Shown one piece after another: positions 11,565-64,000 of a stretch of DNA of 64,000 nucleotides (the stretch's first letter is position 1; the number at the start of each line of letters is the position of its first letter). The DNA comes from Isoetes taiwanensis. Its lineage: Eukaryota; Streptophyta; Lycopodiopsida; Isoetales; Isoetaceae. The stretch covers positions 19,142,386-19,206,385 of the forward strand of contig JAJEKV010000003.1 in assembly GCA_021234155.1 (NCBI GenBank). Reading direction: 5' to 3'. The notes beneath the pieces were generated by a model. It did no database searches. It worked only from the letters and a program-made list of their open reading frames with translations, and was not told where the DNA came from. The position numbers were made by a program, and so were the translations under genes.

Positions 11565-11726
11565 CCCCCCCCGCCCCTCCCTCTTGGTCGATTTTGGTCG
11601 GTTGGTCATCTTTATTTTCTATCTATTTTTCTATATTTTCTGGGTCGCTCGCAGCTTCTGACATCCTACATGTGTCTTTTCTATATTCTTTATAAGTGTA
11701 GATGTGTTTATGTTTCATTTCTTTTT

Positions 11727-18340: not shown

Positions 18341-19418
18341 TTAGATTGACTTGAGGGAAGATTCTTCCTACTTTAGCTAAGAGTTTGTGAGAAGAGTCTT
18401 TCAAAATAGCAGCAGATGATGCAACATTTAGTTTTTTAGAAATACCTCCATCAAACCATAAGAACCCTGTTGGTCCTTGTCTGCTGGGAAGTGCACATTC
18501 CATAATAAGAGGAACCATTTCATATTTTCTTGGTCTTGTATTTTTTATCCTGTAGGATCCCAAAGGCTCTTCAATTAGCATTTCCTTAATAAAGTTTACC
18601 TCTTCTTTGGAGTCATATGAGCCATCTTGGTTGTAAATTGTAGCAGTTTGAGAGCCATTGGAGATGGTACATCTCCCTTGAGACCAGACTGGCCTAGCAT
18701 CCACAGTGGCTAACCATCTTCTCCCTAAAAGTAGGTCATAAATGTCAGATTCATCTCCTATATCCTCAAAAGCCACTACAATAAAGTTAGCAGCTACAGT
18801 TATGCCTTCTGTATTAACAGGCACTTTAGTCACCACACCAATAGGAGTAATCTTAGCATTATAAAAAGATCTTAATAATATAGAAGCTTTCTTGTCCACC
18901 TCGAAACCACACTTCTTCATAATGTGATATGGCATGATGTTTAGGGGGGATCCCCCATCAAGTAACACATTTGAAAAGGTATAACCCCCTAAAGCAGCTG
19001 AACGTGTAAATGCCCCAGGGTCTTCTTCATTCTGCGCTAGAACAAGATTAGTGGCATCAGTGAAATTTACACAAGCATTGAATTGCTCACCACCAGTTTG
19101 CTGGAGTACTCTTTTTCTATAGCTGGGTGCAATCTTTAGCAAGGTGAAGAGATCCACACTTACTTTGGAATTTTTGAGTAAAACATCAACTTCATCAAGG
19201 TCTTGGTCTTTCTTACCATATTTTTGCTGTGGAGGTGGAGCTATCATTTGAGCAGGTGATTCCATTATAAGTGGTGAAGACCTGGCAGTGGGATGTCTAC
19301 TTGATTCAGCATGTACATTGGCTTCATTCATTCTTCTAGTTTGCACTACCATAACTTCTTCAGCTTTGGGAACTTCTGTAGCCTGAATAAACCTTATAGA
19401 AGTACTTGGTTCAGCCAA
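18336..19418 (-). CDS. G3 aspartic protease and linker into RNase H
   Basis: A 360-residue open frame. A disordered N-terminal part contains VVQTRRMNEANVHAESS. A retropepsin-like domain spans about residues 140-240, with VLLDGGSPLNIMP in place of the usual DTG or DSG, and YDLLLGRRWLATV at the flap-distal position. The frame ends in the first strand of the RNase H-like domain (FLWFDGGISKKLN). The substitution DGG at the catalytic motif occurs in some Tat/Athila-type elements but has not been checked here. In life it would process the Gag-Pol polyprotein. Confidence 0.8.
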   Translation of the reverse strand: MAEPSTSIRFIQATEVPKAEEVMVVQTRRMNEANVHAESSRHPTARSSPLIMESPAQMIAPPPQQKYGKKDQDLDEVDVLLKNSKVSVDLFTLLKIAPSYRKRVLQQTGGEQFNACVNFTDATNLVLAQNEEDPGAFTRSAALGGYTFSNVLLDGGSPLNIMPYHIMKKCGFEVDKKASILLRSFYNAKITPIGVVTKVPVNTEGITVAANFIVVAFEDIGDESDIYDLLLGRRWLATVDARPVWSQGRCTISNGSQTATIYNQDGSYDSKEEVNFIKEMLIEEPLGSYRIKNTRPRKYEMVPLIMECALPSRQGPTGFLWFDGGISKKLNVASSAAILKDSSHKLLAKVGRIFPQVNLM

Positions 19419-20541
19419 ATCTCACAGGAAGCTTAGGTTCTCGTCTCTTTTCTTGTTCCTGCTTAGCAAAGTATTCCTTAACAACACACCTAATATCAGT
19501 ATGACCAACTTCTTTACAGAAAGAACAAATAGGACATTCCTTTCCAAAGTGGCCTTTTCTATTGCATTTAGAACACACTTGCCAATAGCAAATTTCTGAT
19601 GGATGAGTATTCCTATTGCAATGAATACATTCAGGGTAAGTTTTACCTGTTCTTGCAGCCTTGAGTTCAACCAATTGTTTGGTTAGTTCTGCTAAAGCTT
19701 CAGTAACCTTAGATAGGTCTGACGTGACCTCTGCAACTTGAGAATTAGCTTCCTCCTCTTTAGATTTTTTCTTTTCTTTCTGTATGGCATAAACTGGAAT
19801 GGAAGGGTGATGATCATAATGTGCATCAGTAGCATTAGGGTAAAAAGGATCATGGCTGTGGTGAGAAACATGGTGCTTGTCAGGCAAAGTAGAGAGCATC
19901 TGAGTCAGGTCAGTGGTTTTGGCAAAAACTTTGTATATAGAATCAAATCCTTCAGCAGCTTGGATCTTGAGCAACTTCCTTTGGATATCTGGTCTTCTTT
20001 CCAAACCATTGATGAAAGCAGTAACTAAAAAAAGGGTTGGGATTGTGACTTGTGCTCTTTAGCACCTGCTCATAAATGTGCTAAACCTTTCTTTGTACTG
20101 ATTCACACTTTCTCCTGCATGTATAGAAAAACTTTGCAACTCATTAACCAAATCTTTTGGAGCAGCTAACTTACCAAACCTATCCAGGAACTTCTTGACG
20201 AGTTCATCCCATGAGGTGGTACCCATTAACTTCTCATAAGTTAACCAAGCACCAGCTTCACTCTCTTCTTTGAAACATTTTTCAAACTCTGAAAGCTTGC
20301 ACCCTTTCTTGAAACCATAATCCCTGTAATAATCTTCAAATATTCTCAAAACGTTGTTAGCACTCATGCTGGAATCAAAAGTAGGCAAAGGAACAGGGAC
20401 ATTCAACTCGAATTGGTATGGCATGTTTTGAAGCAGGCTAGTTGAGAAACTTGAAGGCAATGGCCTTTCTCTGCAATGATCTGGTGCATCAACATCTTCT
20501 AATGGTTTTTGTTCTGCTGGAAATTTTTGCTTTGGAGCCAT
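19411..20541 (-). pseudogene. G3 gag with three zinc knuckles
   Basis: The chosen start is the ATG at 20541 (MAPKQKFPAEQ), about 40 bases downstream of the LTR end and primer site. The capsid-like part (LTYEKLMGTTSWDELVKKFL...AGESVNQYKERF) spans 20.4-20.06 kb. After one stop the frame continues to 19411 with three CX2CX4HX4C knuckles in a row: CIHCNRNTHPSEIC, CSKCNRKGHFGKEC and CSFCKEVGHTDIRC. Knuckles bind the genomic RNA. One nonsense and one start problem near 20.03 kb separate the two halves. Confidence 0.85.
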
Positions 20542-20582: not shown

Positions 20583-22346
20583 TGTTGACCCTAAACCTGG
20601 CTTAAAGATCAACCACAAGGAACCAACTTGAGTCTACACCCAAATTGAGGTTAGAACCTCCAGATCACTTAAGGTGATTAGTCTATGCAAGATAAATCTA
20701 AGGAGAAGTCCAAGAAACTCAAATTTCATACCTTTCCCATTTCTAGGAAATGGGACCTTGACTCAAACGGCTGTAGTGTCAAGCAATGGATCGATTTTTC
20801 GAGTCAACCACTTCAGACTTGCTCAAAAAAGTTGTAGGAATTCAATGCTGAAGTTTCTGACCAAGTCATATTATAAATTTGAAAGATATTCAATCCCAAA
20901 GTGGGGTCAAAAATTGGTCAATAGAGGTCAACTATGGAAAAAAGTGATCAGAAAATAAGATTTGAAGTTACAGAGCGTATTTTTGGGAATTTCCAAAGCA
21001 CATGTGCTCTAATGGTGATGAGAAAGAGGGGCATGAGGTCAAATTTCCATTTGAAACTACAGAAGCACTTTTTGTGGCTGGATTTGGCAAAATACAGTAA
21101 AAAAATGATCAGACCCGAATGCTAATTTTTCTAACTTGAACTAGAAGTGGTATTTTTTGATGTTTTCAAAGCATTTAGCTCACAGTTGCTCTAAGGATAG
21201 ATGGCAAGTAGGCCAATGGTGCTTTGGAACACTCAGGGATTTTCTGTAAAATATTTTGAATCAAGAATTGCTAAGAAATGTATCAAAGAGGGATTTGACA
21301 ACTTGGCAGTCAATTTATATTGATATGAAGGTAAATACATCATAATAACAATGGATAATGATACTTCAAAGTTTCAGATACTGGAAAATAATCATCATAA
21401 GTCATAAGATAATTTTTGAAAGTAGTATCAACTAGATCTTTGCAAATCCAGTCGAGGAATGCTCAGGGACTTCAAGAATCTTTCAGGTCATGCTCAGCAT
21501 TGATCAATGTCGGATTTGAGTGCGCCTGGGCCTTCGAAAATGTCGTGATTGTGTTTCCCCTTTATATAGTTTCAAATTTCGATTCCAGTGATTTTAGGTA
21601 ATAAATTTAGGCTTAATCTGTTGCTTAGGTTCCGGAATCCAAAAATAGAGTGGTCTCAGAGAGAATGGAGCGCGGGAAGGCATGATTCGAGCCGGATTTC
21701 CAGTTCTAGGGTTCTTCAGCTGTATTTTCGCATAATTTTCGCGATACGGTTTTGTATTTTTGAAGGAATATGCCCTGTATATGCCGTATTCGATCATTTT
21801 TAAAAACTTGGCCAATGGTTTAAAGGCTTTTGTTCATAGGATATTTAAAAGAAGTTATAACCTTTTGACCATAGGGAAGATTGCCCACATGTGTAAAGGA
21901 ATATGGAATCTTTAGGGCATCTTTTGACAAGGTTTGGAATATACCAATGAGGGCATAATGGAATAGGAATAAGGCAAAATAAATCATAAAGGGCTAGTAG
22001 GGAGACAAAGGTGAAAATGCAAAAGAGGGGAATAATAACTTTGCAATAGGGGCTTGAATGTCTTTTTGAATAACCAATGTAGGGATATTTGGAGGAAATG
22101 GCAAGGACTTGGGCAAAATGACAAGGTGGGCATGGCAAAGAGATGAGCAAAGGACATGAAAACAATATTGGGCCAAAGGTGCAAAAATGGAGGTAGTGGG
22201 GTGAAACAAAGGCCAAAATTAGAAACTATACACCATGGGGTCTTCCAAACTCTTAACTTCCAATCTTCAAAAGATGTCTTCCAAACTTCATAACCCAGAT
22301 TCTTCTAGAGCATATTCTTAACTAAGCATTTGATCCCAAATACAAT

Positions 22347-27703: not shown

Positions 27704-27912
27704 TTGAGCTGCCTTTCTCGACTCGCGAGTCGAGAAAGGTCTTCTGACCCCTAAAACCGCGGCTGCTTTGAGCTGCCTTTCATTCGCGCGAGTTGAGAAA
27801 GGCCTTCCCGACTAAAACCGTCAAGGGCTTTGGCTGCCTTTCTCGACTCGCGAGTCGAGAAAGGCCTTCTGCCCCTAAAACCTGCGTTTTTCGCTTTGAG
27901 CTGCCTTTCGCT
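27704..27912. repeat. About three tandem units with a 28-bp perfect palindrome
   Basis: Units of about 62 bp begin TTTGAGCTGCCTTTC. Two contain the self-complementary block from CCTTTCTCGACTCG to CGAGTCGAGAAAGG (27712-27739 and 27837-27864). The middle copy is degenerate, and a fourth starts at 27894. Confidence 0.92.
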
Positions 27913-29008: not shown

Positions 29009-30011
29009 ATGAAGATGTATGGATTCTCAGGATTCAATCAGATTAGCATTAAGGAAGAAGACCAGCCAAAGACTTCTTTCATCATCCTTTGGGGCACATA
29101 TGCTATGAAAAGAATGCCTTTTGGTTTAATGAATGCTCCAGCTACCTTCCAAAGAGCAATGGATGTTATTTTCAAATCAATGTCTGCTGAGGAGTTCAGG
29201 GTGTACTTAGATGATCTTTGCCTAGGCTCTCATCCTACTAATCATGTGGAGTTACTTGCAAAAAATTGTTCTCTATGCAGGAGTTCAGGAGTTAATCTAA
29301 ATCCAAAGAAATGCATCTTTTTTGCATCAAAAGGACAACTCTTAGGACATGAAGTATCCAAGCAAGGCATTCAAGTTGCTCAAGACAAGATTGAAGCCCT
29401 CAAAAAGCTAGCACCTCCCAAGAATCTAAAGCAGGTTAAGAGTTTTATTGGTATGACAAGTTTCCTCAGGATGTATATTCCTAATTTTGCTCATATTTTG
29501 AGTCCCATTTCTAGATTGACAAGGGTAGGCAAGTTTTCTAAGTCTGAAAGTAAGCATATACCTATAACATGGACTTCAGAATGCCAAGAGGCCTTTGACT
29601 TTCTCATTCTATCCATATGTGAAGCCACACTTTTGAAAAAACCAGATTTGAACATGCCATTTGAAGTTTATATTACTGTTAGGATTAGCCATTTTGCAAG
29701 ATAAACATACCATAGTATTTGCAAGTAAACAATGGTCTGCCCTTGAAGAAAGATATACCAGAATAGAAAAGAGTGCTGCTGCACTCATGTTCCTTATCAA
29801 TAGGCAAGGACACTTGCTTCTGAAGAGTCAAGTCCAAGTTTACATGAAGCAAAATCCAATGGGTTTACTGTTTGGCAAGGCAACCAGTAAGCCAAAGATC
29901 CAGAGATGGGCTTGTAAGTTGCAAAGTTATGATATTTCTGTAAAAGAGTTGCATTTGGTGCGAAGTCCTAGCCTTTATTTGCCTTATATATTTTTTGACC
30001 ATGAAGATTAG
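29009..30011 (+). pseudogene. G3 reverse transcriptase (rest) and second RNase H
   Basis: The frame starts YGFSGFNQISIKEEDQ and runs through MPFGLMNAPATFQRAMD. The catalytic box is YLDDLCLGS in place of the usual YVDD or YIDD. The connection motif is LKQVKSFIGMTSFLRMYIPNF. RNase H continues with a one-base frame change near 29.68 kb: KHTIVFASKQWSALEERYTR and IQRWACKLQSYDI. This is the second RNase H region of the element, the first being upstream of RT. A frameshift and the missing N-terminal palm make it inactive. Confidence 0.88.
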
Positions 30012-31355
30012 TTGGATGCTACTGACACTTCACTTGCAGTAGCTCATATAGAGGTAACTCCAGAAGATCAAGCTAAGGGGGGATGGCAACAACCTATTAG
30101 AGACTTTTTACAATATGGGATTATCTTTCCAAGCCTCACTTCAAGCCAAAAAAGGAGACTCAAGGATAAATGCAGACAATTCAAGATGATAAACAATATC
30201 CTGTGCAAAGTCAACCAAGATGGAGTCTTGTTGAGGTGTGTAGATGAAAGTGAGTCTGCTCTAATTATCAGGGAAATGCGTAAAGGTATTTGTGGAGGAC
30301 ATTTTGCTGGTGATATTACAGCAAAAAAGATTCTCAGGTCTGGATACTACTGGCCTACTATTTTTAAAGATTGTTATGAGATTATAAAGACTTGCCATCA
30401 ATGCCAAATCTTTAGCAAAAGAATTTTACTGCCAGCTGCCCTTAATCCCATCATATCTCCAGGGCCTTTTCAGATTTGGGGACTAGATTATATTGGCCCC
30501 ATTAATCCTTCTTCTGCAGGTCAACATCAACATATTATTGTAGCCACAGACTATTTTACAAAGTGGGCAAAAGCTATACCTTTGAGGCAGGCTAATGCTG
30601 CAAGGTTTTTACATGAATATGTTTGTTCCAGGTTTGGTATTCCTTTCCAGTTGCATTCTGATAGGGGTACACCTTTTGTTAATGAAGTTATTGCTAACCT
30701 GTTGGACATTTTGAAGGTCAAGCATACCAAAAGCTCCTCATACTATCCTTAGGGTAATGGACAAGCTGAAGCCACTAACAAAGTGTTGAAAAATATTTTG
30801 CAGAAGACAGTTGAGGTCAACAAGAGGGATTGGCATGTCAAAATAGTGGATGCACTTTGGGCTTATAGAGTCACCATCAAAACAGCTACAAATCATACAC
30901 CTTTCAATTTGGTTTATGGCATAGAGGCAGTTTTACCAGTGGAACTCGAGTTGCCTTCCCTGAGATTGGCTCATAAATTATGCTTACTTTTTGAACATGC
31001 CTTGCAAGAAAGGTTGGATGCCTTGCTGCACCTAGATGAATATAGAATGGAAGCTGACAATACTAATTTACTGAAAAAGGCTAAAGATCTGGCTGCATTC
31101 AAAGCTGCACATAGAATACAGGGTACTTTTAGGAAGGGGGAGCTTGTCCTTAAGTGGAATAAGTCAAAAGAAGACTCAGCTGGCAAGTTTGATAATATTT
31201 GGGAAGGACCCTTTGTGGTGCAGGAATCTGCAGGTACCAATTTATATTGGCTACAAGAGGTTGCCTCAGGAATGTTGTTACCAAATCTTATCAATATCCT
31301 GCATTTGAAAAGGTATTGGGACCAGCATGCTTGCTTGTCCCTCTTTTTGCATTAG
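30012..31355 (+). pseudogene. G3 integrase
   Basis: The zinc domain shows GGHFAGDITAKKIL...CHQCQ (HHCC). The core has the D,D,E residues in WGLDYIGP, LHSDRGTPF and GNGQAEATNK. The third lies just after a TAG at 30750-30752, the only nonsense codon in an otherwise open run of about 445 codons. The C-terminal part (GTFRKGELVLKW...GPFVVQES) is the usual GPY/F-like region, with no chromodomain after it. It would insert the cDNA into the genome. Confidence 0.9.
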
Positions 31356-32123
31356 AAAGTTCAAGGATCTATGGTAGGTTTAGAATAGTCAGATCTATTT
31401 GATTTTTGAGCATATTACTTTGATAAGTTAATTTTATGATTGTAGGTTGGGCTGACCTGAGGACAGTATAGGTGATCTCAAGAAAAAGAGTGATTACTAA
31501 TGCTTTACCAAGTGCCATATGCAGGAGCATCCTTTTTTCCATCTTTATTCACCTGCCATAAGTGGTCCTGCTACTCATCTAGACTTCTTACTCCTGTTTT
31601 CATTCCCATAAAAGCACTCTGCAATTCAGCTTCACCACCATATAGCAGAGTTCCAAGGTTTTGAGACTAACTAGTTTGTGTGTTTCCATGACAGGTGCAT
31701 CCTTTCTCCATTTTCATTCATCTGCCATAAGTAGTCCTGCCATCCATTTAAACTCCTTATTCTTGTTTTTCATTCCCAAAAGAAAGCACTCTGCAATTCA
31801 GCTTCACCATCATAGCAGAGTTGCTCTTTAAAGGATCAAGGAGGCACACATTCTTTTGTTTTGGCGAGATCTCAACACTTGCACATTTACCTCACCCTCA
31901 TACACTCCACCCCCATCATCACCCTATCATATTCTCACTCATTCTCATCCTGTTTTCACTCATCATATTCCACTCACATCCTCCCACCACCATATTCACT
32001 CTTATTCCATCAATACTTGCAATTACGCCCTCTCTCTACCATGATTCTTACTTAGGCATCTTGGTACAAAGTTGAAGACCCTCTATGGCTGAGGGGACCA
32101 GCCATTCTTTTGTTTTGGCAAGA
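31356..32123 (+). other. G3 3' untranslated region with an internal duplication
   Basis: No frame. A block of about 135 bp is repeated (about 31519-31654 and 31696-31826; shared CACTCTGCAATTCAGCTTCA). A TCTTTTGTTTTGGC motif occurs at 31852 and again at 32108 just before the LTR. Confidence 0.7.
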
Positions 32124-34062
32124 TGTTGCCCCCAAAGGGCAACATGCTAATTGTGTTCTATGCATTCAAGTCAGGTTAAGTCATTTCTGAAGACTAGGTC
32201 AAAGATTGGAAGAGCTTGGTAGTCAACATTGGTGTGAAGGTCAAAAGATGCTTACCTTCTAGGTCAACAAATGCTCAAGCCAAAAGTTCACAAGAGGTAT
32301 TGTATTTGGGATCAAATGCTTAGTTAAGAATATGCTCTAGAAGAATCTGGGTTATGAAGTTTGGAAGACATCTTTTGAAGATTGGAAGTTAAGAGTTTGG
32401 AAGACCCCATGGTGTATAGTTTCTAATTTTGGCCTTTGTTTCACCCCACTACCTCCATTTTTGCACCTTTGGCCCAATATTGTTTTCATGTCCTTTGCTC
32501 ATCCCTTTGGCATGCCCACCTTGTCATTTTGCCCAAGTCCTTGCCATTTCCTCCAAATATCCCTACATTGGTTATTCAAAAAGACATTCAAGCCCCTATT
32601 GCAAAGTTATTATTCCCCTCTTTTGCATTTTCACCTCTGTCTCCCTACTAGCCCTTTATGATTTCTTTTGCCTTATTCCTATTCCATTATGCCCTCATTG
32701 GTATATTCCAAACCTTGTCAAAAGATGCCCCAAAGATTCCATATTCCTTTACACGTGTGGGCAATCTTCCCTATGGTCAAGAGGTTATAACTTCTTTTAA
32801 ATATCCTATGAACAAAAGCCTTTAAACCATTGGCCAAGTTTTAAAAAATGATCGAATACGGCATATACAGGGCATATTCCTGCAAAAATACGAAACCGTA
32901 TCGCGAAAATTATGCAAAAATACAGCTGAAGAACCCTAGGACTGGAAATCCGGCTCGAATCATGCCTTCCCGCGCTCCATTCTCTCTGAGACCACTCTAT
33001 TTTTGAATTCCGGAACCTAAGCAACAGATTAAGCCTAAATTTATTACCTAAAATCACTGGAATCGAAATTTGAAACTATATACAGGGGAAACACAATCAC
33101 GACATTTTCGAAGGCCCGGACGCACTCAAATCTGACATTGATCAATACTGAGCATGACCTGAAAGATTCTTGAAGTCCCTGAGCATTCCTCGACTGGATT
33201 TGCAAAGATCTAGCTGATACTACTTTCAAAAATTATCTTATGACTTATGATGATTATTTTCCAGTATCTGAAACTTTGAAGTATCATTATCCATTGTTAT
33301 TATGATGTATTTACCTTCATATCAATATGAATTGACTGCCAAGTTGTCAAATCCCTCTCTGATACATTTCTTAGCAATTCTTGATTCAAAATATTTTACA
33401 GAAAATCCCTGAGTGTTCCAAAGCACTATTGGCCTACTTGCCATCTATCCTTAGAGCAACTGTGAGCTAAATGCTTTGAAAACATCAAAAAATACCACTC
33501 CTAGTTCAAGTTAGAAAAATTAGCATTCGGATCTGATCATTTTTTTACTGTATTTTGCCAAATCCAGCCACAAAAAGTGCTTCTGCACTTTCAAATGAAA
33601 GTTTGACCACATGCCCCTCTTTCTCATCACCATTAGAGCACATATGCTTTGGAAATTCCCAAAAATACGTTCTGTAACTTCAAATCTTATTTTCTGATCA
33701 CTGTTTTCCATAGTTGACCTCTATTGACCAATTTTTGACCCCACTTTGGGATTGAATATCTTTCAAATTTATAATATGACTTGGTCAGAAACTTCGGCAC
33801 TGAATTCCTACAACGTTTTTGAGCAAGTCTGAAGTGGTTGACTCGAAAAATCGATCCATTGCTTGACACCACAACCGTTTGAGTCAAGGTCCCATTTCCT
33901 AGAAATGGGAAAGGTATGAAATTTGAGTTTCTTGGACTTCTCCTTAGATTTATCTTGCATAGACTGGTCACCTTAAGTGATCTGGAGGTTCTAACCCCAA
34001 TTTGGGTGTAGACTCAAGTTGGTTCCTTGTGGTTGACCTTTAAGCCAGGTTTAGGGTCAACA
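32124..34062 (+). repeat. 3' LTR of G3 (1939 bp, uninterrupted)
   Basis: It starts TGTTGCCCCCAAAGG and ends GGTCAACA, and is nearly identical to the inverted 5' LTR. It preserves the target sites as they were before the TRIM (32222-32226) and before the 830-bp insertion (32299-32310). Confidence 0.95.
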
Positions 34063-43189: not shown

Positions 43190-44614
43190 TTATTTTTCTG
43201 ATTTTGTCACTGTTATATCTGCTGCAGCAAATTTTCTAAAATTGTGTCTATGTTTGTAGAGAGTAGTTTCATCAAATATTATATCTCTGCTGACAATGAT
43301 TTTGTTTGATTCAGGTATGTACATTCTGAAGCCCTTTGATTGCTCATCATAACCCACGAGATAACCAATGTTGGCCTTGTCATCCAGTTTACTTCTTGTT
43401 TCTTTGGACACATGAATGTATCCTAAGCAGTCGTATACTTTGAACATGTTATAATCAATGTTAACCCTGTTTGATGACCATGCAAGCTCTGGAATATTTC
43501 CATGCAATGCTGCAGAGGGAATTTTGTTTTGTATCATAGTTGCTGTTCTTAATGCTTCTTCCCACAATTTATTTGGCAGACCAGAGCTTTTAAGCATTGA
43601 TCTCACGGCATCCAGAAGTGTTTGATTCTTTCTCTCTGAAACACCATTCTACTGTGGGGTGAATCTGCAAGTTAACTGCCTTTTGATTCCACGAGCCATA
43701 CAGAATTGTTTAAATTTTGTAGAGAGATATTCGCTGCCTCTATCAGATCTAATACATTTAACCTTTCTTTCAGTTTGTCTCTCTACTTCTGAAACAAACA
43801 ATTTTAGAGCATCTAGAGCCTGATGTTTTCTAGTCAAGCAACAGCATTTACATTTTCTACTAAAATCGTCAATAAAGTATCTCTTTCCAGTTCTGCTTTA
43901 GACATTCAGAGGTCCACATAAGTCTGTGTGGATGAGATCAAGTATTCCATGTGCTTTATGCTTCGATCTCTGAAATGGCAATCTGCTTATCTTTCCTAGT
44001 ATGCATCCTTCACACATAATCTGTTTATTTTGATCTTCTTCTACTTCTTTACATTCCAACAAACCTTTTTTCACCATAAATTTGACATTGTTACAATGCG
44101 TATGAGCTAGTCTATTATGCCATATTTCCATGTTTGGAATCATAACAGCATTTATGCTGTCCAAAGTCACGTCATTCAGCTGAAACAAATTACCAATGCG
44201 TTTTGCGAAAAATCTCAAATCATTATTCATAAACACTTTACATTCTTGCTTGTCAAAGACAAGTTTATATCCAAGATCGACCAACTGACTTACTGAAATC
44301 AAGTTCTTTATTAAACTAGGCACACATAAGACATTTTGAATGTCAACAACATTTCCTTCCAAATCAAGTAGCTGCAGCAGTCCACAACCTTTAATTTGCT
44401 GCATCTCCCCATTTCCGACCTGCACATGTTTAGATTTGGCTGCTATCACATTCTTGAGAATATCAGTTGAGGTAACTACTGATCTCTCAGCTCCGCTATC
44501 AACTATAATTGCACCATGCTTATTGTTAGTGTCTTTGTCAAACTTAGAATCAGCAACGTATGAATTGTATGATACGATACATATTTGCCGTATAAAACGT
44601 AAAAAATACGGCAA
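43190..44614 (-). pseudogene. Copia-1 protease and integrase
   Basis: The protease has AIIVDSGAERSVVTS (catalytic DSG). The integrase zinc domain has HNRLAHTHC and CEGCILGK. The core contains IDDFSRK, IRSDRGSEYL and a TPQ-stop-NGVSERKN motif, in which the usual second Q is a TAG at about 43.65 kb. Another stop lies near 43.9 kb. A few codons are missing between GPLNV and RYFIDD. The 5' end is displaced by the MITE at 44.57 kb. Confidence 0.9.
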
Positions 44615-44920
44615 AAAAAAATTCCGGCGTCGGAAGATTTTCGGCGTCTGAAAAACAACGCGGAAAGCCGCGACGCTGAATTTTTCGCGTCTGTGATCTG
44701 AAGGTTTCAGCGACGCATTTTTTTTTTTTTTGCAGACGCGGTTTTGACTATTTCGCGTCGACGCGAAAAATTTTCACAGACGCGGCTTTCCGCGAAGCTT
44801 TTCGCGTCAGACGTGAAATTTTTTTTTTTTCGGGCGGCGTGAGGTTTTAATACGTTAAATACGTATTTTATTAAAAAATACGTATTTTTTTACTTTATAC
44901 GTCAGGAATTTTAATTTTGT
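44565..44920. mobile_element. Foldback MITE of about 356 bp in copia-1
   Basis: It separates copia gag from protease. Terminal parts are inverted relatives (CCGTATAAAACGTAAAAAATACG-like on the left; its counterpart, read inward, on the right). The centre is highly self-complementary around CGCGGAAAGCCGCG and TTCGCGTCTGTG, with poly(T) runs between. Candidate duplications ACGTATGAA and ACGTATAGAA differ by an indel, so exact ends are uncertain. Confidence 0.65.
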
Positions 44921-44931
44921 ACGTATAGAAC

Positions 44932-45917
44932 CTATCCCTGCTCTTGTTCAGACTTTGCATGTTCTTCCCTAGCAAAATGAATGCCACTGGTACGTCCTCT
45001 CCTTCGTGGTCCTCTTCCTCTTTGAGTAATACCTCTGCCCCTTCCTCTATTGTTTCTTCTTGGACTGGAACATTTTGCTGCTATATGGCCTTTTCCGCCA
45101 CAATTATAGCATGTCAACTCATCATTAAGTTTAGGACAATTAGGCTTAACGTGCCCAGGCTCATGGCAATAATAACATGTCCCCTTTTCAAAGCTTTGCT
45201 TTTTTCCCTTTCCAGCATAAAGTATTTCAGCAGAATCATCTTCTGACTTATTTATTTTTTTCTGTTCTACTTCTGTCCTCAGCATGCTCTCTGCTCTTGT
45301 TCTTGTTTTAGCGGCATTCCTTATTAGCACGACCAATTGATCATTATCTGAAACAGCTCTAGCAATTGAGAGTACTTGGTACCTCTCATTAATATTCACA
45401 CCAGCCCCTTCTAAATCCGCTATAATATTATCAAACTTATTGAAAAAATCAGATATATCATCATCATCATGGAACTTTAATGATCTCAGCTCATTTTCAA
45501 GAACTTCTATCTGAGAAGAGGTCCTAGCTTCATAGTGTTTAAGTAAATATGACCACGTCTGGCGAGGAGTCTTACCTCTGAGTTTAAGCATTATAGTTGG
45601 GCCAACTTTGCTGCAGATTATCCCTTTTACTTCTTTGATTTTGGCAGATTGGGTTGCAGCTCCTGAATTGACTCCTCTTCCACCATGAGCAGCTTCATAG
45701 TTGCTTGAAGATCCTCCTACTGCACCAGCTGTTGAGCTTGCACCACTAGCTGCAGATGTTTCACCCTCGCCATTATCTGCACCATTTGGATAACAAGTTC
45801 CCATAAGTCTTCCACCTCAAGAATATGCATTATTTGGTCTTTCCATATTTGAAAACCTGCTCCCCCTTTATACACTTCAACTGCGCTCAGCAAACTTGCT
45901 CCAAAATGACTTGCCAT
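44932..45917 (-). pseudogene. Copia-1 gag with two zinc knuckles
   Basis: The start ATG at 45917 (MASHFGASLLSAVEVYKGG) lies close behind the primer site. A one-base frameshift near 45.79 kb moves to the main frame: a serine/alanine/glycine linker, then KTPRQTWSYLLKHYEA, the UBN2/gag-like helix region, SDFFNKFDNIIADLEG, and two knuckles, CYYCHEPGHVKPNC and CYNCGGKGHIAAKC, followed by an RGRG-rich tail. It builds the particle shell and binds RNA. Its closest relative in the window is copia-2 gag at 52.7-53.6 kb. Confidence 0.9.
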
Positions 45918-45935
45918 TATTAAAATGACAGGATT

Positions 45936-45954
45936 TAGCAACTCTGATGCCAAA
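45936..45954 (-). other. Copia-1 primer binding site
   Basis: Next to the 5' LTR the minus strand reads TTTGGCATCAGAGTTGC, a slightly mutated tRNA-Met site. Confidence 0.75.
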
Positions 45955-46484
45955 TGTGATTGATGGATCTCAAATTCCAACAAACAAGATGGCTTCTCAA
46001 CTCTAGACTTTAGATAATGAATTGAACCTTCTCTCAACAATGAACATTCAAACTAAGATATCAGAGTTAAACAAGTTTTATCCAATGGTTCAATGGTCAA
46101 AATTCAAATTCCTTTGTTACTGTAGCAATGGGATTGAAGCAACAACGAACTCCTCCTAGATGCACTATTTCAATGCCGATCTGATCCAATCTGACTGCTC
46201 CTTGGCCGATATGCCCCAAACCATCTCAAATTTATTGCACACTTCATCCTCTTATCACAATTCCGATCGGTCAGGCTAGAAGCTGGCCTTACTATTTTCT
46301 CTCCATCTTCTTTGCCTAATTCTCATTTGGCCAGGTGTCCGCCCATATACCATAGACCTTAGAAAAGTTTAAGGCATATCGGATCAACTTATTTTCATCA
46401 ATATAACCATGCTACAACCTTATTCAAACTTTACCTCAGCCAGAAATTTAAGATGAATTATCAACTGCATGCCCATATTTCACA
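45955..46484 (-). repeat. Copia-1 5' LTR
   Basis: 530 bp, matching 39154-39660 apart from point differences and one indel near 46.36 kb. Confidence 0.93.
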
Positions 46485-54919: not shown

Positions 54920-55229
54920 ATTAAACGGGAGCAAATCATTGAAACGAGAGCGAAAGGAATATTCCTTAAAGATTCCCCTTTTTTTTTTACAAAAAGGGGG
55001 TAAAACGAGGTTTAAAAAAAAAAAGATGCATGAAATTCTATTTTGACCCCCCCAAAAGTGACTAATTTTTTTGTGCAACGAAAGAATTGACTGTTTGAAA
55101 GTGTCATTTTTCTTAGCAAATAGAATGTTCTTGAAGTATATTTTACGTGAGAAACCCTAATTTCAGAGGATAAAATATTTAACAAAAAATTGAAGTTAGT
55201 CCGTAACTGAAACTGTAGTATTCTCAAAA

Positions 55230-58200
55230 TTTGAAGATACAATCTTCATATTCACAACAAAATTCTGAGTTTTTTTTCTAAGACTCGGTTATGTGCAAAA
55301 GTGTGAGGAGTGATGAAGGAGGGATCCAAGGCGTCATCATGTTCATTTATACCATCCTCATCACCTTCACTTTTTTCCTTTGTCACTAGAGGAAGTGCTT
55401 GAGTTATCTTCCTCATCACTATCAACAGATGGTGTAGCATTGCCACCACCTTCTTCATCCCTTCTTCTTCGTAATTACAAGCTTTTTTTAAGCAAATTGA
55501 TAGTCCTCTGGCGTGAGGCGATTGTCGATTTCAATTTAAAATCATAGCACAATATAGTCCGTCATTAAGGATCAGCTCATCCCTACAACCCACCTTCTTG
55601 GACTTTCTTTTTTTTCCTTGGCTTCTCATTTCTAACTCATATCTACCTTCAAAAGCATTTTTTACGATCGTGTTGCAAGCCAATGAATCTTGAGTTTAGT
55701 GACTAAGCCTTCCTCCTTGGCGGTGTCAAGCACTTTTGCTATCGAAAGGTCGACCTTTGTCATCCTCCTCGGTTGGAAGAGCAATTAGCATACCCTTGCA
55801 AATTTACGTGATATTACCTTGAGGTTCATTCCTGCGTCTTGGTCCAGAGATACATGACTCGATCCTCATCTTCTTCTAATGCAGGTGCTAATGTAGCCTT
55901 TGCTTGGACCTGCTTAGTCTTTGGGGTTGATGGAAGGTGTTAGGCCATCGAAATGGTTCTTGCAACTGTCTTAGAGCTATATTTTTTCACAACAATTTTA
56001 CGTCGAGAAAGAAATTACTCCACCACATCCGATCTTCTTCTAAGAAGTACTTAAAAAGCTCGAGGAAATTCCATTTTCAATGGCTTTTAAGGATGACTCG
56101 GGGTACTTTTCTTACGCTTGGACTCCTTAGGATTTTTGAGAGGAAGTTGTTCAAAGACGTTCTATGAAGGAAGTGTGCGGAATATATTTAAGGAAGCGTA
56201 ATCCCTCTTGTGGACTCGGTCCTTAGTTGTGGTATACTTTTTCCCCCAGAAGAAACTCGGCCATCCTTCAAGTAGAACTTGATGTGATGTTGAAAGGTGA
56301 GATCATTCAACTTGTTCCACGGCTTGTTCTCTGTGCGAGCGTTGAGAGAAAACAAACTCTCTCGAAATCAGCAGTCTCTTTAAGAAGATCGATCCTTTGG
56401 AGTGGGAGTGTAAGAATCTTCAATAATTGAACTAATGTAGGAAGGGAGAAAGCCTTCTTCCTTCTAAAGGCGCCTGAAAATCTCTTTGAACATCCGGTCA
56501 ATCGATCATGAGTGTGGCCTACAAGTAAAAACCGAGCTTCACTTTTCTAAAGATCCCTAGCTCCACTAACATAGCACGGTATGCAAAGAGTGTTTGATTC
56601 TTGTTCTCCCTTGTAGTATTGTCAAGTTGCGAGGTAAAAACCGGTGGTAATTGCTCTTGCTTTCGCATACGGGACCTGGTTAAGAATTGTAATTGTGAGG
56701 TTGGTCACCATGCAAGTTTGGATATGTCAAAATACTTTGCACTTTAGACTTCCTTTGAAGACCATAGCTCCTACAAGGTGGACCTTAACAAAACATTCCT
56801 CGGCACATCTTTAGGAATGTTCAAGAAATGTGGTAGAGTAGTTTTTTTTTGGTCCATTCCATCAATCTACAGAGACATATATTGCGTGCGGACGTTCAAG
56901 AGCTTTTTACGTGTTTGGCAAGCTTTCTTTCTCTGGCTTTGCTTGTTGTTCACGATGTGCGGCAAGGTTACATTTGCACAATATCGTAGAAGAAATAAGG
57001 TCAAAGCATTTTTTTTAAAACAAGTGAGAGTTTGAAGAACATGAGCTTACTTCTTTCGACTTACGTCTTTTTGCGGTTTCTCTTTGACTTTTTAATTACG
57101 CACACCTTGAGCAAAGCGGACATTACGTGTCTCCTCGGAATTTTCACTAAACCGAATTCACTTTTCCACAATCGGTGAAGTGTGAGTAAGAGATGTCTTT
57201 GAAGTTGAGTGCAAGTCTCTTTGTACTCATTAAAACATCTTTTTGGTGATGTTATCGGTTAAATGATACATGTTTTTGTTAGGACTTCTCACATGTTTCT
57301 CTAAAATATTTCTCCATCCATGACACGGCAAAGACAAGGGCATGCATGGTTACAACTCTTCTTGGTCCACAATGATCATCAATTCTTTGGATTTTTGTCC
57401 GATCTTTTGTGTATTCTAGACATTACGGTAGTCCCTAAGCGGTGGACAACCATAAAGCATTCGGCAAACTTCTTGGCCGGTTAATGTAGTGCAAGAAGGT
57501 GTTGCTTGGGTCTGGCCTTACATGATAGGCCAAGTAGGCATTACGGTCAGCCAATGTCATTGAGCGTAGTTGTCTCTAATTGCTCGTAATTTAGACATGT
57601 TAAATTTGTTGATGCAACCCAATGAGCAGCATTTACTTCTTAAAAGTCTTCTCATTTTATGCTCGTCCATAAGGTTTCTTCTTCTTCTGAGGAGGAGCAT
57701 GCTCTCACACCATAATCCACCTTAAATTTTTGGTGGGTGGCTAGAAGAACATGTAATCTCGTTGCACCGTTGGTGTCTTCATCTTACGAAGAGAGTTCTA
57801 CTCGGGGGTGACCTCCTACGCCCTTAGTGGTGTGCTTGTAGAGGAGAACAAACCACGTGAAGTCTGTACCGAAAAAGGCGGAGGTGCGGTGTTGAATGAA
57901 GGAGATGGGCCAGCATATGATGTGCCGGCCGAAAGTTGTTGTAAGCGTCTTCACGGGGAGTTCGATCGAACATCTCTTTATAGCGGTGAAATTCTGCAAA
58001 CCCATGTGTCACCACGTTTGTGTGAAGAGGAGTAGATCTTTGCAGGGGTCGTCTTCATTTGTAGTGAAATCGTGGTGGGAGAAAGCGATGGAGAATCTCT
58101 GATCTTGAGCGTCGGTTTGTATTCTGGCATGTGTAAGTGAAGATGGAGAAACAACAAGCGGCGGAGGTAGTCTGTTCGAAAAATTTTTTGAGGTCGAGCC

Positions 58201-58485
58201 ATTGTAGTGTCGGGGGGATGGAACAAATGGTGGTGGAAGATTGCTCACGTGCAACGGTGAGGGTTGGAAAGGTGGTGGCAGCCGGTTTCCTATTGGACTT
58301 GGAGAGGGTTGGAAAGGTGGTGGCGGTCTACTAGTTCTTGGACTCGGAGTTTCTTCTAGAAGTAACAAAGACCTTGTCGAGGTAGGTGTTGAAGAAGCAT
58401 CTCCGTCTTGTGTTCCATCGAAGTAGAGGTACTTGGGCAAACAAATGGTGGTGGAAGTTTGTTCTGAAGCGGTTAACCATTTCAA
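55230..58485 (-). pseudogene. Leftward gene of the 8.4-kb element, unidentified
   Basis: Several exon-like open blocks lie on the minus strand: a proline-rich start (RPPPPFQPSPSP, three similar repeats) at 58.48-58.05 kb; HGFAEFHRYKEMFDRTPRED near 58.0; ADRNAYLAYHVRPDPSNTFL and DHCGPRRVVTMHALVFAVSW at 57.55-57.3; a block ending KKSKRNRKKT before GTAAGT at 57.07; NQTLFAYRAMLVELGIFRKV at 56.6; PWNKLNDLTFQHHIKFYLKD at 56.3; and FLEEDRMWWSNFFLDVK at 56.0. Stops and frameshifts are frequent. It may be the transposase, by position and size, but I see no DDE motif. Confidence 0.5.
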
Positions 58486-58882
58486 ACAAGCAAAAAAAAT
58501 TGTGGGCTTGTTACTAACTCACAAGTCGATTGGACTAATGCTATTCGAGAATACAAATGCTATTACGGAATAGTATTACGTAATGCGACATTTCTTTGTG
58601 TGTGTGCAAGAATGCTATTCGAATACACTTATCAGTGTTTGGACAAGGCGTATTCCGCATCACATAGAAAAACACAACCGGCGGTTGCCTACCTTTAAAA
58701 AAGGAAAATTCGGCGCCTGGGTTGCGTATTCGCTTTCAGAGATTTAGTCGCCCAGCCCAAGGCGCCTTAGATTAATATATATTTCTTTGTATTCCGATTC
58801 ACATAGCGAAAACAATGGGCGGGGTAAGCATGTAAAAGTACATAATACGTCTTTCTTTGGTTTTCGATTTTTTTTACGTAGG

Positions 58883-59193
58883 CCAAAGTGTATTCGAATA
58901 CACTTTGCCCATCGGCGAAAGAGCAAAGTGTATGATACGGAATACACTTTGCTCATCGGCGAAGTGCAAAGTGTATTAGGAATACACTTTGCCCTTCGGG
59001 TGAAAAGTAAAGTGTATTAGGAATACATTTTACTCTCGCTGAAAGGGCAAAGTGTATTCGAATACACTTTGCTAAATCTCCCGATAGGCAAAGTGTATTA
59101 GGAATACACTTTGCACTTTCGCCGATGAGCAAAGTGTATTCGAATACACTTTGCTCTTCGTTGATGGGCAAAGTGTATACGGAATACATTTTG
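58883..59193. repeat. Palindrome array 1: eight units at about 40-bp spacing
   Basis: Eight palindromes built on GTGTATTCGAATACAC (variants TTAGGAA and ATACGGAA in the middle), each with outer arms GCAAA/TTTGC, start near 58883, 58923, 58966, 59007, 59047, 59087, 59128 and 59167. Spacers of about 14 bases often contain ATCGGCGA or its complement. The array lies between the two divergent genes. Confidence 0.95.
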
Positions 59194-60240
59194 CTTGTAG
59201 TTTTGAGAAGCTTGCTTTTTTTACTAAAATCACACACTTTTTAGGCTGCATTGAGACAACATTTTATGTTAAAAATTACTCTGTTAAGTCTAATTTAGGT
59301 ACACGAAATTGACTTAGACTGACAACATTTTAGCTTGTTTTCTTGTCTTTTTCTGGCCTTTAGGGCATAAGATTAGCAAATGTTATTACGGAATACAAAT
59401 TTCTTTTGCATTTTCTGTCTTAACATGGTTGTTTTAAAGCGTTTGATGGCGGGGAAGAAGGAAGCAAGAGGGCATCAAAGAAATCTCATAAGCCTAAAGC
59501 GTCCACACCCACAAAAGCACGCCCGACGACGGACGAACACGCTATTTACGAAAACTTTCAAAGCGCGGTGGTTCGTAACGGGGGGCAGATGGAAAATCTG
59601 ACCTGCTTGGCGTTTTTATGCGTCTGTAAAAGTCTTTGGTAACAAAAATACGCCGACTCCATGTTTGTTAACCTTGGGACAATAAAAGATGTCTCAGGGT
59701 TCTTGGGACAAGGAGGTCAAGCAGGGGAGGCTATCCTTCAAGACCTCCCAAGGCTTCATTGTTGTGGACCTTGCATTCTTTAAAATTGTCGGTGTGCAAC
59801 CACCGGCCTTTGTACAAATTTTTTCACACTACCGGCTAAAAGCGAAGCTTTGTGTTCATTAATTAAGCAGGTTTTTCCGGCCTGGCGAGGACTTTCTGTC
59901 GGTGAGTCAGAGCAATCGGATGGAGAAAGATCGCAATCACCACCTTCTCCTAGTTACGCTGGTTCTTGGGGAGGTCATCGGATAAAGGTTTTGAGGAAGA
60001 AGAGGAGGAAGAACCCCCTTGTGCCAAAGAAACTTAGCACGCCAAGAGAGACCATAGCTGCTAAAGAACCAAAGAAAAGGAAAAACACATGACTTGAAAT
60101 CATAGAAGTCCCCGAGGAACCTAAGAAGAAGAATGGAAAGGGTAAAGCACCGGTGTTGCTATTAAAGAAAAAAAAGTTGATAAAACATCTGAAAAAATGG
60201 AAGAGATTAACACGCACAAGTTTGTGCAAGGTGTCATTAT

Positions 60241-60720
60241 TTGCCGATCACTTCAATGAAGCTTCCTCCAAAAAATGAAGCTGGTGAAAGGCCACTTCAG
60301 GTTCGCAAAATTTATGCCCGATCACTTGAGGAACACGAAAAAGAGAATAAGGAGCAATCAAATGCTCATGTGGCCCCAATAGTTGTCCTTGTTGGCGGGG
60401 GGACGGTGCACAACCCCCGGGAGTATGGCGGAGGAAAAAATCGACACCTACACTCACTACGTCTTGGGAGGGAATCATAGCTTCAAGGCAAGAAGGCAAC
60501 TTTACAAAGAAAAGAAGAACCGAGGAGGGTACCTCTCCGTCCTCTGCTTGGCCATCTTTGTGGTCTTCTGGATGAAGAAGCAAAAATCGTTGCCAACACC
60601 CACAATGCTGACAACGAGTACAAACTAAAGATGAGCTTTGTCGACAAGATCCGGTTTATGCACAGGGAGTGCGTAATTTTCAAGGAAAATGCGGTGAGGA
60701 CTGAAGAAGCCAGCGTTTTC
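60241..60720 (+). pseudogene. ParB/Srx-like domain region
   Basis: RPLQVRKIYARSLEEHEKEN, then HVAPIVVLVGGG, then HYVLGGNHSFKARRQLYKE (60455-60510, the ParB GGNHR-like motif), then GLLDEEAKIVANTHNADNEY and KMSFVDKIRFMHRE. These are the successive conserved blocks of ParB-N-like proteins, spread over three frames because of indels. In such proteins the domain binds or nicks DNA with nucleotide help. Function here is inferred. Confidence 0.65.
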
Positions 60721-61196
60721 CTTGGAGCTTAAGGGGCGTGTGCCATTGAATCTGCTGAAATATGAGCGAGGCCAACAAAAGGCGATCTCTTATTCCCCAT
60801 GACAAGCTGGTTTCAGTTAGCTTTTAGAGATGGCAAGGTAAGCACAAAATGTATTCGAATAGCAAACCAACTATTTGGCGTGAAATCTGCTTGAGCAGAT
60901 TTGGGAACTCCAGGACCAGATATTCACAATGTTCGAGCGAGGGGAGTTAAAGAGCAAGGGCAAGGAGACAGCCAAGAAAAAAACCTCGGACGTGCCCAAA
61001 AAAGAAATGACCATTACCGATGCGGAGGGAAATGCGGGGCTTCTCCGAGCCACGAGAGATTTTGGAAAGGCTTCTCCAAAAAGTTGTTGACAAGGAGTTT
61101 AGCCTAGAAGAAATGTCAAAGGAATTGCACAAGTAAGATCTACGCCACAAACTTTACTCTTTAGGCGTTAGAGTCCCAAAAACATCGTGGTAGATA

Positions 61197-61480
61197 GTGT
61201 ATTCGAATACACATACCTTTCTTCACTTGGGCCTTTGTGTATTCGGAATACACAATCTTTGTTCTAGAGACAAGCAATGTGTATTCGGAATACACAATGG
61301 ACATGTAAAGGAAGCCATGTGTGATACGGAATACACATGTCCTCTTCTAAAAAAAGTATTGTGTATTCGAATACACATTGCTTTCTTCGAGGAGAAGCAA
61401 TGTGTATTCGGAATACACAATGCATTTTGTTTCGAGGTAACATCACCCGGTTAACGGTTTGTATTCGAATACATTTAGCT
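61197..61480. repeat. Palindrome array 2: seven units in an intron
   Basis: Copies of GTGTATTCGGAATACAC or GTGTATTCGAATACAC start near 61197, 61237, 61278, 61317, 61359, 61401 and 61459. Outer arms here are TGT/ACA or CAAT/ATTG, unlike array 1. Bounded by the splice donor at 61132 and acceptor at 61555. Confidence 0.93.
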
Positions 61481-61849
61481 TGACTTTTATTTGTTTTTCT
61501 TCTTCTTTGCCTTGTTTCTTACTTTTTTACTCATTGTTTCCTTAACGTCTTGCAGCCAAAAGAGCGTCATAACATGTCAAACATGTTTGATGGAGCAGAC
61601 TAAGCGTAGAGACATGGGAAAGGTGCAAGGAACTCTACCACTGTAGCCAGCCGCCGACGGCCGAATTGTGCAATATGCACCAAATTTTGAGGGCTGGGTA
61701 AGTACTCTCAACATTACTTCGCCTTTGCACACCACGATCTCCTTACAATTGTTGTCATGTTTTTCTCGAGCAAAAAGAAAAACAAAGACCTTCAGGGGCT
61801 TCATGCATTTGGTTAGAACGACACGGGGAAGAGAGGTCGTTAAATTTGA

Positions 61850-62760
61850 AAAGAAGAACTGTTGAGTTAGAACCATCCGATTACGAGAATTCGGCATGTT
61901 TGATCAAAACAATTTATATTCAATCATTCATGGTGATTGCACGAACCTAGTCGGAACGGTTAAGCCACGAGGACTTCACTTTGGTTATTCTTTGATCTTC
62001 CCTACGGGTTTAAGCTTAAAGGCGGCCGAGATATGGCGACCAGCCCTTCAAATTTTCAGAGTTTAATGCTTTTATTGATGGAATCAAGCGGATCACAACG
62101 GCTAAACATTGGCGTTTAGTTACTTTCCATTCGAGCATGCGATGCGGCTTGGTAGAATCAGCTTTCAAAAACCACTTTGGTTCTCCGGTTCGGCGGGGAT
62201 ATGAAAACCTTGTATGCGGTAAGTCTTATTCGAATCTGAGTTACTTTTCTCTTTGATTCGTAGTGTATTAGGAATAGTATTTCTATACGGTTTTTGAAGT
62301 GTGTTCTTGTTTTTGCTAAGTAAACATCACTTTAAATGTTTTACTAGGTACAAAGCGAACATCAACTACCATGGTGGAGGACCAAGGTTGCTTAGCAAGG
62401 TAGAGTACCTTCATGTAGCTTATTGGAGTTTTGATGGGAAGAGGACCATGGAACACTTCAACACTTTGCCGCTGTCAAAACTTCTCAAGCGTCCTTGAGT
62501 TTCCAGTGATTATTCTGAGAAAGTGCGGGACCCAAGCGCACAAAGGCGGGATTGTGAATCACTACTAGAAACCACAAAAGCTCATCAACCATCTCACGGA
62601 CATGTTCTCGGCGTCGAGACCGGGTGCTTGATGCTTTCTCACGGTTCTGGTACTACTATCGCATGTGCACTTAAGAAGGGCCGCAAGCTGTAGCCGTGGA
62701 TATTGATAAGGATCTTTGTTAATTTTGTGAAGATGAGGCTGGCTGCCTTACCTACTTTAC
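61850..62760 (+). pseudogene. Amino-methyltransferase region (N6-adenine or N4-cytosine type, beta motif order)
   Basis: In order: LYSIIHGDCTNL (61911-61946), DLPYGFKLKGGRD (catalytic DPPY-like motif, second residue L instead of P, from 61994), an intron beginning GTAAGT near 62220, KPQKLINHL (62569-62595), PG then VLDAFS (62624-62641), GSGTTIACALKKGRK (62643-62686) and AVAVDIDKD. DPPY before the FxGxG-type SAM site is the beta-class order. A one-base slip lies inside the SAM motif, and several stops occur. It would methylate DNA bases if intact. Confidence 0.7.
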
Positions 62761-63329
62761 GGATGAACATCAAGAGCTAGGGGCCAAGTCTTCATCGATT
62801 ATGCTAAACTAACATCCTCGGAGATCTGACCTCCATTCTCCGACTCACTAGGCGATGAGGCAACCTTTGCGAGCTTAAAGAAGTAGCTTTAGCTACCATT
62901 CCAGGAAGGACAAGGAGGATACAAAACTCAAGTCTCCAGCAAAGGGCGAGATAGAAACGAAGGGCGAGATGGCGAGAGAGCAGCAAAAAGAATGAGGAGG
63001 ACTATGATGTAGATCTTTTGACTCTTGCATATTAAAATTATCATTATTTATTACAATGAATCTTCAATATTGATGTACAACAATTTATTAAAAACATAGT
63101 ACTTTTTTTTCCTTTCTATTCTGGTGCTTGTTTTTTGTAATGCTTTCAGTCTCTTCAAGTCTATGCCTAAATTTCGCTATTTTTATGATTTCTGTTTCAT
63201 AAGTACAAAGTTTTCGTCTAATAATGGGCCAAAATGGCATGAAAAAAAATGCAAACCTCTAGAAATTCTTAACAACTATCAAAAAAGGCTTATTTTAGAA
63301 ACTTGGTGTTTTTTTAAAGGGAATCTTTG

Positions 63330-63357
63330 AAACGGGAGTGATGCAACACTCCCGTTT
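63330..63357. other. Terminal hairpin of the 8.4-kb element
   Basis: AAACGGGAGTG and CACTCCCGTTT form a perfect 11-bp stem with loop ATGCAA, only three bases from the right end. The left end lacks the equivalent perfect hairpin. Confidence 0.85.
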
Positions 63358-63360
63358 AAT

Positions 63361-63697
63361 TTGCAATCGTGTTTTCTGCGCCCATTTGATGTTGTTTTGA
63401 TGCCGGCTACCTATGCCCCTTAGTCAATTCGACTGTCCCCGACATGTTGTTGCAAGAATCACCCTCCATCCGAGTTACCTAAAAAACTTTATGGCCCTTG
63501 GAAACAAGAGACCTCCTTCTTTTCAAGAACTTAACATACCTAATCCTAATAACTCAAACCTTAATCCCTAACTAGCTTAGTCCTCTCATGAATAGGCCAA
63601 TACATGTATAGTTTAACTTAAGTTGAAGTCCTCTACAACTAAACAATCTAACGAGTTAGACTATTTCCAGTGCAATGATTTGGTCCACCAAAATCAT
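63361..63697 (-). other. G6 leader, distal part
   Basis: Lies between the primer site at 63698 and the 8.4-kb insertion. No frame. Confidence 0.65.
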
Positions 63698-63709
63698 GCT
63701 CTGATACCA
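63698..63709 (-). other. Primer binding site of G6 (tRNA-Met type)
   Basis: The minus strand reads TGGTATCAGAGC, one base from the LTR start at 63711. Confidence 0.88.
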
Positions 63710-63710
63710 C

Positions 63711-64000
63711 TCTGACGCTCCCAGAATCCATAAGATGCTTCCATCATACAAATACGGGAAATTCCCCTCCCGTGGCGACTACATCACCACGGAAAGGCCC
63801 TTCGTCTAACTCGGACCACTTGAGATGGTGTGACGCTCCCTGCTAAACGTACGGCGCCCGGCCGTACACTCGGCAGGAAATCCCCCATCCGGCTCAACAA
63901 CCGCATGGGCCCTTCGTCTACCCCGCACTCTGAGGTGACTCTTAGTGCGGGAAGGGAACACGAAGGTGTCTTGCGCGCCCTTCCCCTATGGGCTCCTATA
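63711..64000 (-). repeat. G6 5' LTR (partial), split by another LTR at 63829
   Basis: TCTGACGCTCCCAGAATCCAT matches the 3' LTR at 38862. At 63829 a second TGTGACGCTCCCTG start appears without a primer site, so another gypsy-group LTR or element has inserted here; its 5-bp duplication would be GATGG. Both run off the edge. Confidence 0.8.

Follow-up and report, generated by a model that had tools for sequence, protein, structure and literature searches.

A decayed transposon of Isoetes taiwanensis with a DUF7869 transposase-type gene, a predicted amino-methyltransferase gene and phased palindromic motif arrays

The locus considered here raises the question of whether a plant transposon could carry its own means of recognizing and chemically marking its DNA. 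The window, i.e., the whole stretch of 64,000 nucleotides that was analysed, comes from the lycophyte Isoetes taiwanensis (assembly GCA_021234155.1, contig JAJEKV010000003.1, positions 19,142,386 to 19,206,385 of the forward strand; coordinates below count from its first letter). At 54921-63359 it contains an element in which matching ends, TTAA-ACGGGAG at the left and CTCCCGT-TTAA at the right, enclose two divergently oriented, broken genes. The element is real and both its transposase-type gene and its methylase are firm, with the ParB-like part of the latter gene being unproven. We interpret it, at a probability of about 0.5, as a decayed, probably Sola-type transposon of ~8.4 kb, in which a DUF7869 gene and a ParB-like/methylase gene are accompanied by motif arrays that would serve self-recognition and self-marking.

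The extent of the element is defined by its ends. The sequence TTAAACGGGAG is found at 54921 and its complement, CTCCCGTTTAA, ends at 63359; the end motif TTAAACGGG occurs once in the 64 kb, at 54921, as does its complement, at 63351. The terminal inverted repeats comprise ACGGGAG at 54925-54931 (plus strand) and CTCCCGT at 63349-63355 (minus strand), bordered by TTAA at 54921-54924 and 63356-63359, respectively, and have a length of 11-12 bp (11 bp if the TTAA is counted, else 7). The preliminary description of this DNA had proposed an inverted-repeat transposon at 54920-63360, and these ends, short as they are, do bracket both genes. The TTAA at both boundaries is a possible 4-bp target-site duplication; as TTAA is itself a palindrome, such a duplication cannot be separated from the inverted repeat, and its exclusion gives an element proper of 8431 bp (54925-63355). 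Of 1000 shuffles, 5 reached the score of a strict end-to-end alignment, as did 7 of 2000 pairs of segments drawn at random from the window (those less than 300 bp apart were skipped), and looser scoring favours a different register. The terminal repeats are real, yet modest. No empty site was seen in the window, where stretches of the flanks match elsewhere with no match touching a boundary. At the right end, 63330-63357 additionally forms a 28-bp subterminal inverted repeat built from the end motif AAACGGGAG in two copies; the left end, unlike the right, displays AAACGGGAG and AAACGAGAG in direct order.

The minus-strand gene, earlier listed as an unknown gene lying head-to-head with the methylase gene, is indeed present in that arrangement and can now be identified as a transposase-type gene with a DUF7869 region. 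The broken gene spans 55288-58202, with its N-terminal part being tentatively placed from the reading frames. DUF7869, which is the sole family matched by this gene, is detected at 56307-56704 in two uninterrupted minus-strand frames by the Pfam profile, with an expect value (E) of 1.6e-14 in one (56519-56704) and 6.6e-5, under the family cut-off, in the other (56307-56546); the joined read-through of the gene matches it at 2.2e-23. A search of 5.8 billion proteins yielded four relatives from 6838 candidates, all of them annotated as DUF7869, and the best of these, P0001, matches 56969-55288 in tblastn at 2.75e-64, a result involving no manual joining of frames. Inspection of the four relatives shows no variation in the aspartates at P0001 positions 119, 158 and 161, a pattern in line with a DDD enzyme in which these would be the candidate catalytic residues. 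Further, an earlier aspartate, reached by three of the relatives, is embedded in GMDQKK in two and in DMDQKK in one. A structure predicted with regard to the DDD question had a mean predicted local distance difference test (pLDDT) score of 38, too low to use.

The second gene, a broken one on the plus strand at 59436-62809, was delineated from read-through pieces, Pfam matches and relatives, and its product is, as judged from domain and motif content, a predicted beta-class amino-methyltransferase (N6-adenine/N4-cytosine). On the frame-joined read-through the Pfam N6_N4_Mtase profile matches at 2.6e-8 on its own and at 1.4e-7 in a longer, strict read-through, both of which pass the curated cut-off; it matched none of the single frames tested, and the domain is visible only in joined frames or in relatives. 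Three relatives, P0005, P0006 and P0007, match the C-terminal half at 62340-62880 in tblastn, again with no manual joining (1e-30, 2e-26 and 2e-24), and themselves match N6_N4_Mtase at 1e-16, 5.2e-18 and 6.1e-16; their identity is 63-65% in the alignment and 61-72% in the search. They cover only that half and, lying on contigs of 901-2179 bp, do not reveal the sequence upstream of it; P0005 seems to begin in sequence ahead of the acceptor of intron 3 (see below). The fourth row of this search, P0008, reached only E 0.12. The signature motifs are DLPYG at 61994-62008, KPQKL at 62569, LDAFS/GSGTT at 62627-62657 and AVDID at 62693, which we take to be motifs IV, X, I and II, in the order of the beta class, with X, I and II lying in the C-terminal half; the earlier identification of a methyltransferase is upheld by the profile match and the relatives, and its assignment to the beta class by the motif order. 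In a search of solved structures the methylase obtained weak matches, of which the top three are amino-methyltransferases (2.1e-4). When the long read-through was first used as a protein query, none of 6985 candidates reached E 0.001 or better, and in prokaryote genomes searched with the methylase alignment 42 stretches fit the pattern, none of which is a relative.

The coding sequence appears to be interrupted by three putative introns with GT...AG ends, at 60838-60898, 61133-61555 and 62219-62347, in keeping with the spliced gene envisaged in the preliminary description. In an acceptor scan only that at 61555 rose above the threshold for pyrimidines; the remaining two were identified by eye, and a further GTAAG at 61698 is assigned to none of the three introns. 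Ahead of intron 1, at 60431-60717, lie the blocks GGNHSFKARRQL and DEEAKIVANTHNADNEY, with a change of frame between them, which are termed ParB-like on the basis of motif resemblance. Wider searches with these parts gave no relatives in IMG/VR (with P0001, P0006 and the ParB-like core as queries) and no match in plasmids (with the ParB-like core). With the same core, a phage search gave one weak match, located in a tail gene, which was rejected.

The most interesting new lead, absent from the preliminary description, is a set of motif arrays in the non-coding parts of the element. The 64 kb contain 20 palindromic or near-palindromic cores around GTATTCGAATAC (counted in the forms TATTCGAATA, TATTCGGAATA, TATTAGGAATA, ATACGGAATA and TTACGGAATA), all of which fall at 58563-62276 within the element. 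Eleven are in the intergenic region between the divergent genes (58563-59395), one is in intron 1 (at 60852), seven are in intron 2 and one is in intron 3 (at 62266). While eight of the 20 are self-complementary, the remaining 12 all read on the plus strand and none on the minus. In its 16-bp form, GTGTATTC(N)GAATACAC, the motif has 14 sites matching at least 13 of 16 positions, all inside the element, as against a total of 34 in 100 Markov-simulated 64-kb sequences, with at most two in any one of them; at a looser threshold of 11/16 the window-wide excess is absent. All 14 lie within 1512 of the 8443 bp, the portion treated as non-coding. This partition depends on the predicted introns, and the specificity to the element is that seen within the 64-kb window.

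These sites are regular in their disposition. Array A (58888-59189) consists of eight sites with centre spacings of 39.5-43.5 bp, and array B (61197-61474, in intron 2) of six sites with spacings of 40.5-42 bp and a seventh 56.5 bp further on; with that last interval omitted, the 12 spacings are 40.9 bp with a standard deviation of 1.1. Compared across the two arrays in 48 pairs, the 16-bp core shows 88% identity; for the outer flanks the figure is 37%. Within array A the four bases on either side of the core are also alike (82%), which implies a longer repeat unit there. That sites and phase are shared more than the spacers points to possible constraint more than to recent duplication alone. 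No published description of these motif arrays was found, and a scan of IMG/VR for the motif pair as a nucleotide pattern gave no match. Array A as a whole (58884-59193) is also nearly its own reverse complement, at 81-82% over ~319 aligned positions.

The pairing of genes has a precedent, and the earlier suggestion of an undescribed transposon family must be given up, as the kind is already published. Dinatale et al. 2025 (PMC12477816) describe from the brown alga Ectocarpus the transposon Sola1-1_Ec32, which has a gene for a ParB-like protein with an N4C/N6A methyltransferase on the strand opposite the transposase; the authors consider it possible that proteins of this type bind to the transposon encoding them and modify it, and note similar proteins in transposons of green and red algae, citing Iyer 2011 and Petroll 2025. 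Like Sola1-1_Ec32, the element here is a DNA transposon with a ParB-like/methyltransferase gene and a transposase gene on opposite strands, and of the traits of the published accessory protein it displays the N4C/N6A methyltransferase domain and the location opposite the transposase, as seen in one copy. It differs in its size (8.4 kb vs 21.5 kb) and host group, and the description of Sola1-1_Ec32 in the relevant part of PMC12477816 makes no mention of motif arrays. Hence, the element is apparently a plant member of a transposon kind described from algae. As to its class, Sola elements are characterized in PMC10741241 by a DDD transposase, 4-bp duplications, a length of 2-9 kb (some >15 kb) and terminal repeats of 11-1124 bp, and are reported there from moss and as apparently rare in flowering plants. 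The TTAA, the 8.43 kb and the 11-bp repeat (TTAA counted) would be compatible with these traits. Other transposons carrying a DNA-modification enzyme of their own beside the transposase differ in that the enzyme acts on 5-methylcytosine and is not a methyl-adding one; these belong to other transposase lineages, and the corresponding part of their source does not mention Sola.

The arrays find their closest counterpart in the VANDAL/VANC system of Arabidopsis. VANC21 binds YAGTATTAY, which occurs in arrays of one orientation in the non-coding parts of VANDAL21, among them the VANC21 and VANB21 introns and the sequence ahead of VANA21, and DNA methylation is lost through the action of VANC (PMC5735166); VANDAL elements are of the MuDR type (PMC12730594). 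The element here similarly has dense short motifs in one orientation, specific to it within the window and placed in (putative) introns and an upstream region. However, VANC brings about methylation loss, the account of it in PMC5735166 does not present it as a methyltransferase, and its motif, unlike the core here, is not palindromic. The likeness would be one of function only, with no protein relationship being claimed.

This arrangement, resembling that of the VANDAL/VANC motif arrays, is the ground on which we propose self-recognition and self-marking. The accessory protein or a partner might bind cooperatively to the GTATTC(N)GAATAC sites of the shared promoter region and of the accessory gene's own intron, which with their ~41-bp phase, close to four turns of the helix, would lie on the same side of the DNA. 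The ParB-like part would be the DNA-binding part of the accessory protein, which from the bound sites could write N6-methyladenine (6mA) or N4-methylcytosine (4mC) on the element. Such a mark might serve self-recognition, keep the promoters open against host cytosine methylation and/or time transposition. Both genes are broken in the one copy analysed; it presumably gives rise to neither of the proteins, and intact copies would have to supply them in trans for it to move. Bacterial ParB spreads along DNA from parS. The complete version of the proposal, in which the element's own ParB-like methylase binds the oriented, ~41-bp-phased GTATTCGAATAC and one-base-longer sites, perhaps spreads from them, and writes 6mA/4mC that shields the element from cytosine silencing, is a possibility that we entertain tentatively. 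The CpG content would fit some escape from cytosine methylation: the observed-to-expected ratio (o/e) of CpG is 0.82 in the element (54921-63363), and none of 186 sliding windows of equal size outside the element goes beyond 0.73 (mean 0.51).

Several observations weigh against the self-marking interpretation, among them those on the ParB-like part. The preliminary description had suggested profile searches for both domains; N6_N4_Mtase was found, but the ParB_N profile does not recognize the right-gene product in this broken copy, and accordingly only the term "ParB-like" is used here, with membership left open. The quoted blocks are present, but have no match in Pfam or NCBIfam (E up to 10) or in PHROGs (E up to 1), and a search of solved structures with this piece retrieved only a ribosomal protein (E 1.2). 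Comparison by hhalign with the N-termini of bacterial and phage ParB-methylases (a profile of 65 unique sequences, from 78 with the motif among 79 proteins at 84 loci) scored 14.3, within the range of 50 shuffles (mean 11.7, maximum 18.1). Against a second home-made profile of 18 more varied ParB sequences (19 aligned, L091 being dropped for a misplaced motif) the core scored 2.5 bits, as high as which came 34 of 3000 shuffles, a weak support; a longer query scored 2.2 bits, equalled by 66 of 3000 shuffles and by 12 of 4110 six-frame chunks of the window, the latter of which weakens the ParB case. All this would agree with an N-terminal domain that is not ParB-like, in which the blocks are a chance resemblance within some other domain fused to the methyltransferase. 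We regard this as unlikely, as the best profile alignment places GGNH on the ParB glycine box with the following asparagine in register, and the same combination is named for the brown-algal protein (PMC12477816). Moreover, fusion of ParB_N to N6_N4_Mtase does genuinely exist in phages: among three phage and archaeal-virus proteins scanned, L003, from Acidithiobacillus phage AcaML1, passes the ParB_N cut-off, L002, from Wolbachia phage WO, misses it by one bit and L001 has no match. L002 (408 amino acids) and L003 (428 amino acids) have the same two-domain order with the methylase C-terminal, but they are phage proteins, each with 20% whole-length identity to the read-through in a forced alignment.

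Among the remaining counterpoints, the three introns are predictions, no phylogeny ties DUF7869 to Sola, and nothing links the arrays to the accessory protein over the transposase or a host factor. Indeed, the arrays could instead be bound by the transposase or by a factor regulating transcription from the shared promoter, with the methylase acting on transposition, e.g., by marking new copies, in the manner in which Dam methylation marks newly replicated or inserted copies of the bacterial Tn10. The position of array A between the divergent genes would suit this alternative, as would the regular spacing of operators that is usual with cooperative binders; yet the putative introns of the methylase gene contain array B and two single cores, and all 20 cores keep a distance of at least 1 kb from the ends, near which transposase sites would be expected. 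On balance we consider it rather doubtful. The breakage of both genes could also indicate that the methyltransferase gene is a passively captured cargo with no role in a non-autonomous element, and many giant transposon families of Ectocarpus do carry additional genes, mostly of unknown function (PMC12477816). This is distinctly improbable given that relatives with open methyltransferase frames, 63-65% identical, exist on other contigs, and that such a gene recurs in the brown-algal transposon and, according to the work cited with it, in green and red algae. Further, that the two genes move together is read from the ends of one copy and from the brown-algal parallel. A single copy with such short repeats, the score of which some shuffles equal, might thus combine two unrelated adjacent insertions, one bearing the transposase and the other the methylase, but the matching ends enclose both genes, with TTAAACGGG and its complement present once each in 64 kb, and the divergent pair is as in Sola1-1_Ec32 (PMC12477816); we hold this to be very improbable. 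Finally, the simple reading of the CpG content is tempered by two 2-kb bins outside the element with like values (o/e 0.87 at 10001-12000 and 0.82 at 44001-46000), by the low CHG o/e of the element (0.39-0.60 in the bins of 56001-64000) and by the consideration that base composition may vary among elements according to origin.

The interest of the self-marking interpretation lies in two matters. Doubt has been cast on the presence of 6mA in plant and animal DNA (PMC12695648), and the escape of transposons from silencing is understood in few cases; an element that encodes an amino-methylase and has candidate target sites makes both questions testable, at predicted sites. If the interpretation is true, the element would provide a bacterial-style counterpart of VANC with recognition sites legible in the sequence, and its pair of site and protein could be used to place marks on DNA in a sequence-specific manner. 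To judge from the algal precedents, the pairing of transposase and methylase may be old or repeatedly gained, and a plant member would widen its range.

The rest of the window has a character of its own. CpG is kept and CHG is poor in the element, the reverse of most of the window at 1-54900, where Gypsy-type stretches with open frames at 18001-20000 and 30001-32000 have CpG o/e values of 0.08 and 0.04 with normal CHG. Copia as well as Gypsy domains are present in the window, and an open frame at 36513-37136 matches DUF4283, a domain typical of plants, at 4.2e-7. Perfect palindromes of 28 bp (27712-27739) and 30 bp (27836-27865) have CCTTTCTCGACTCGCGAGTCGAGAAAGG in common, and a pair of inverted repeats of 1764 bp, 97.7% identical, at 20583-22346 and 32299-34062, perhaps stems from opposed retrotransposon copies.

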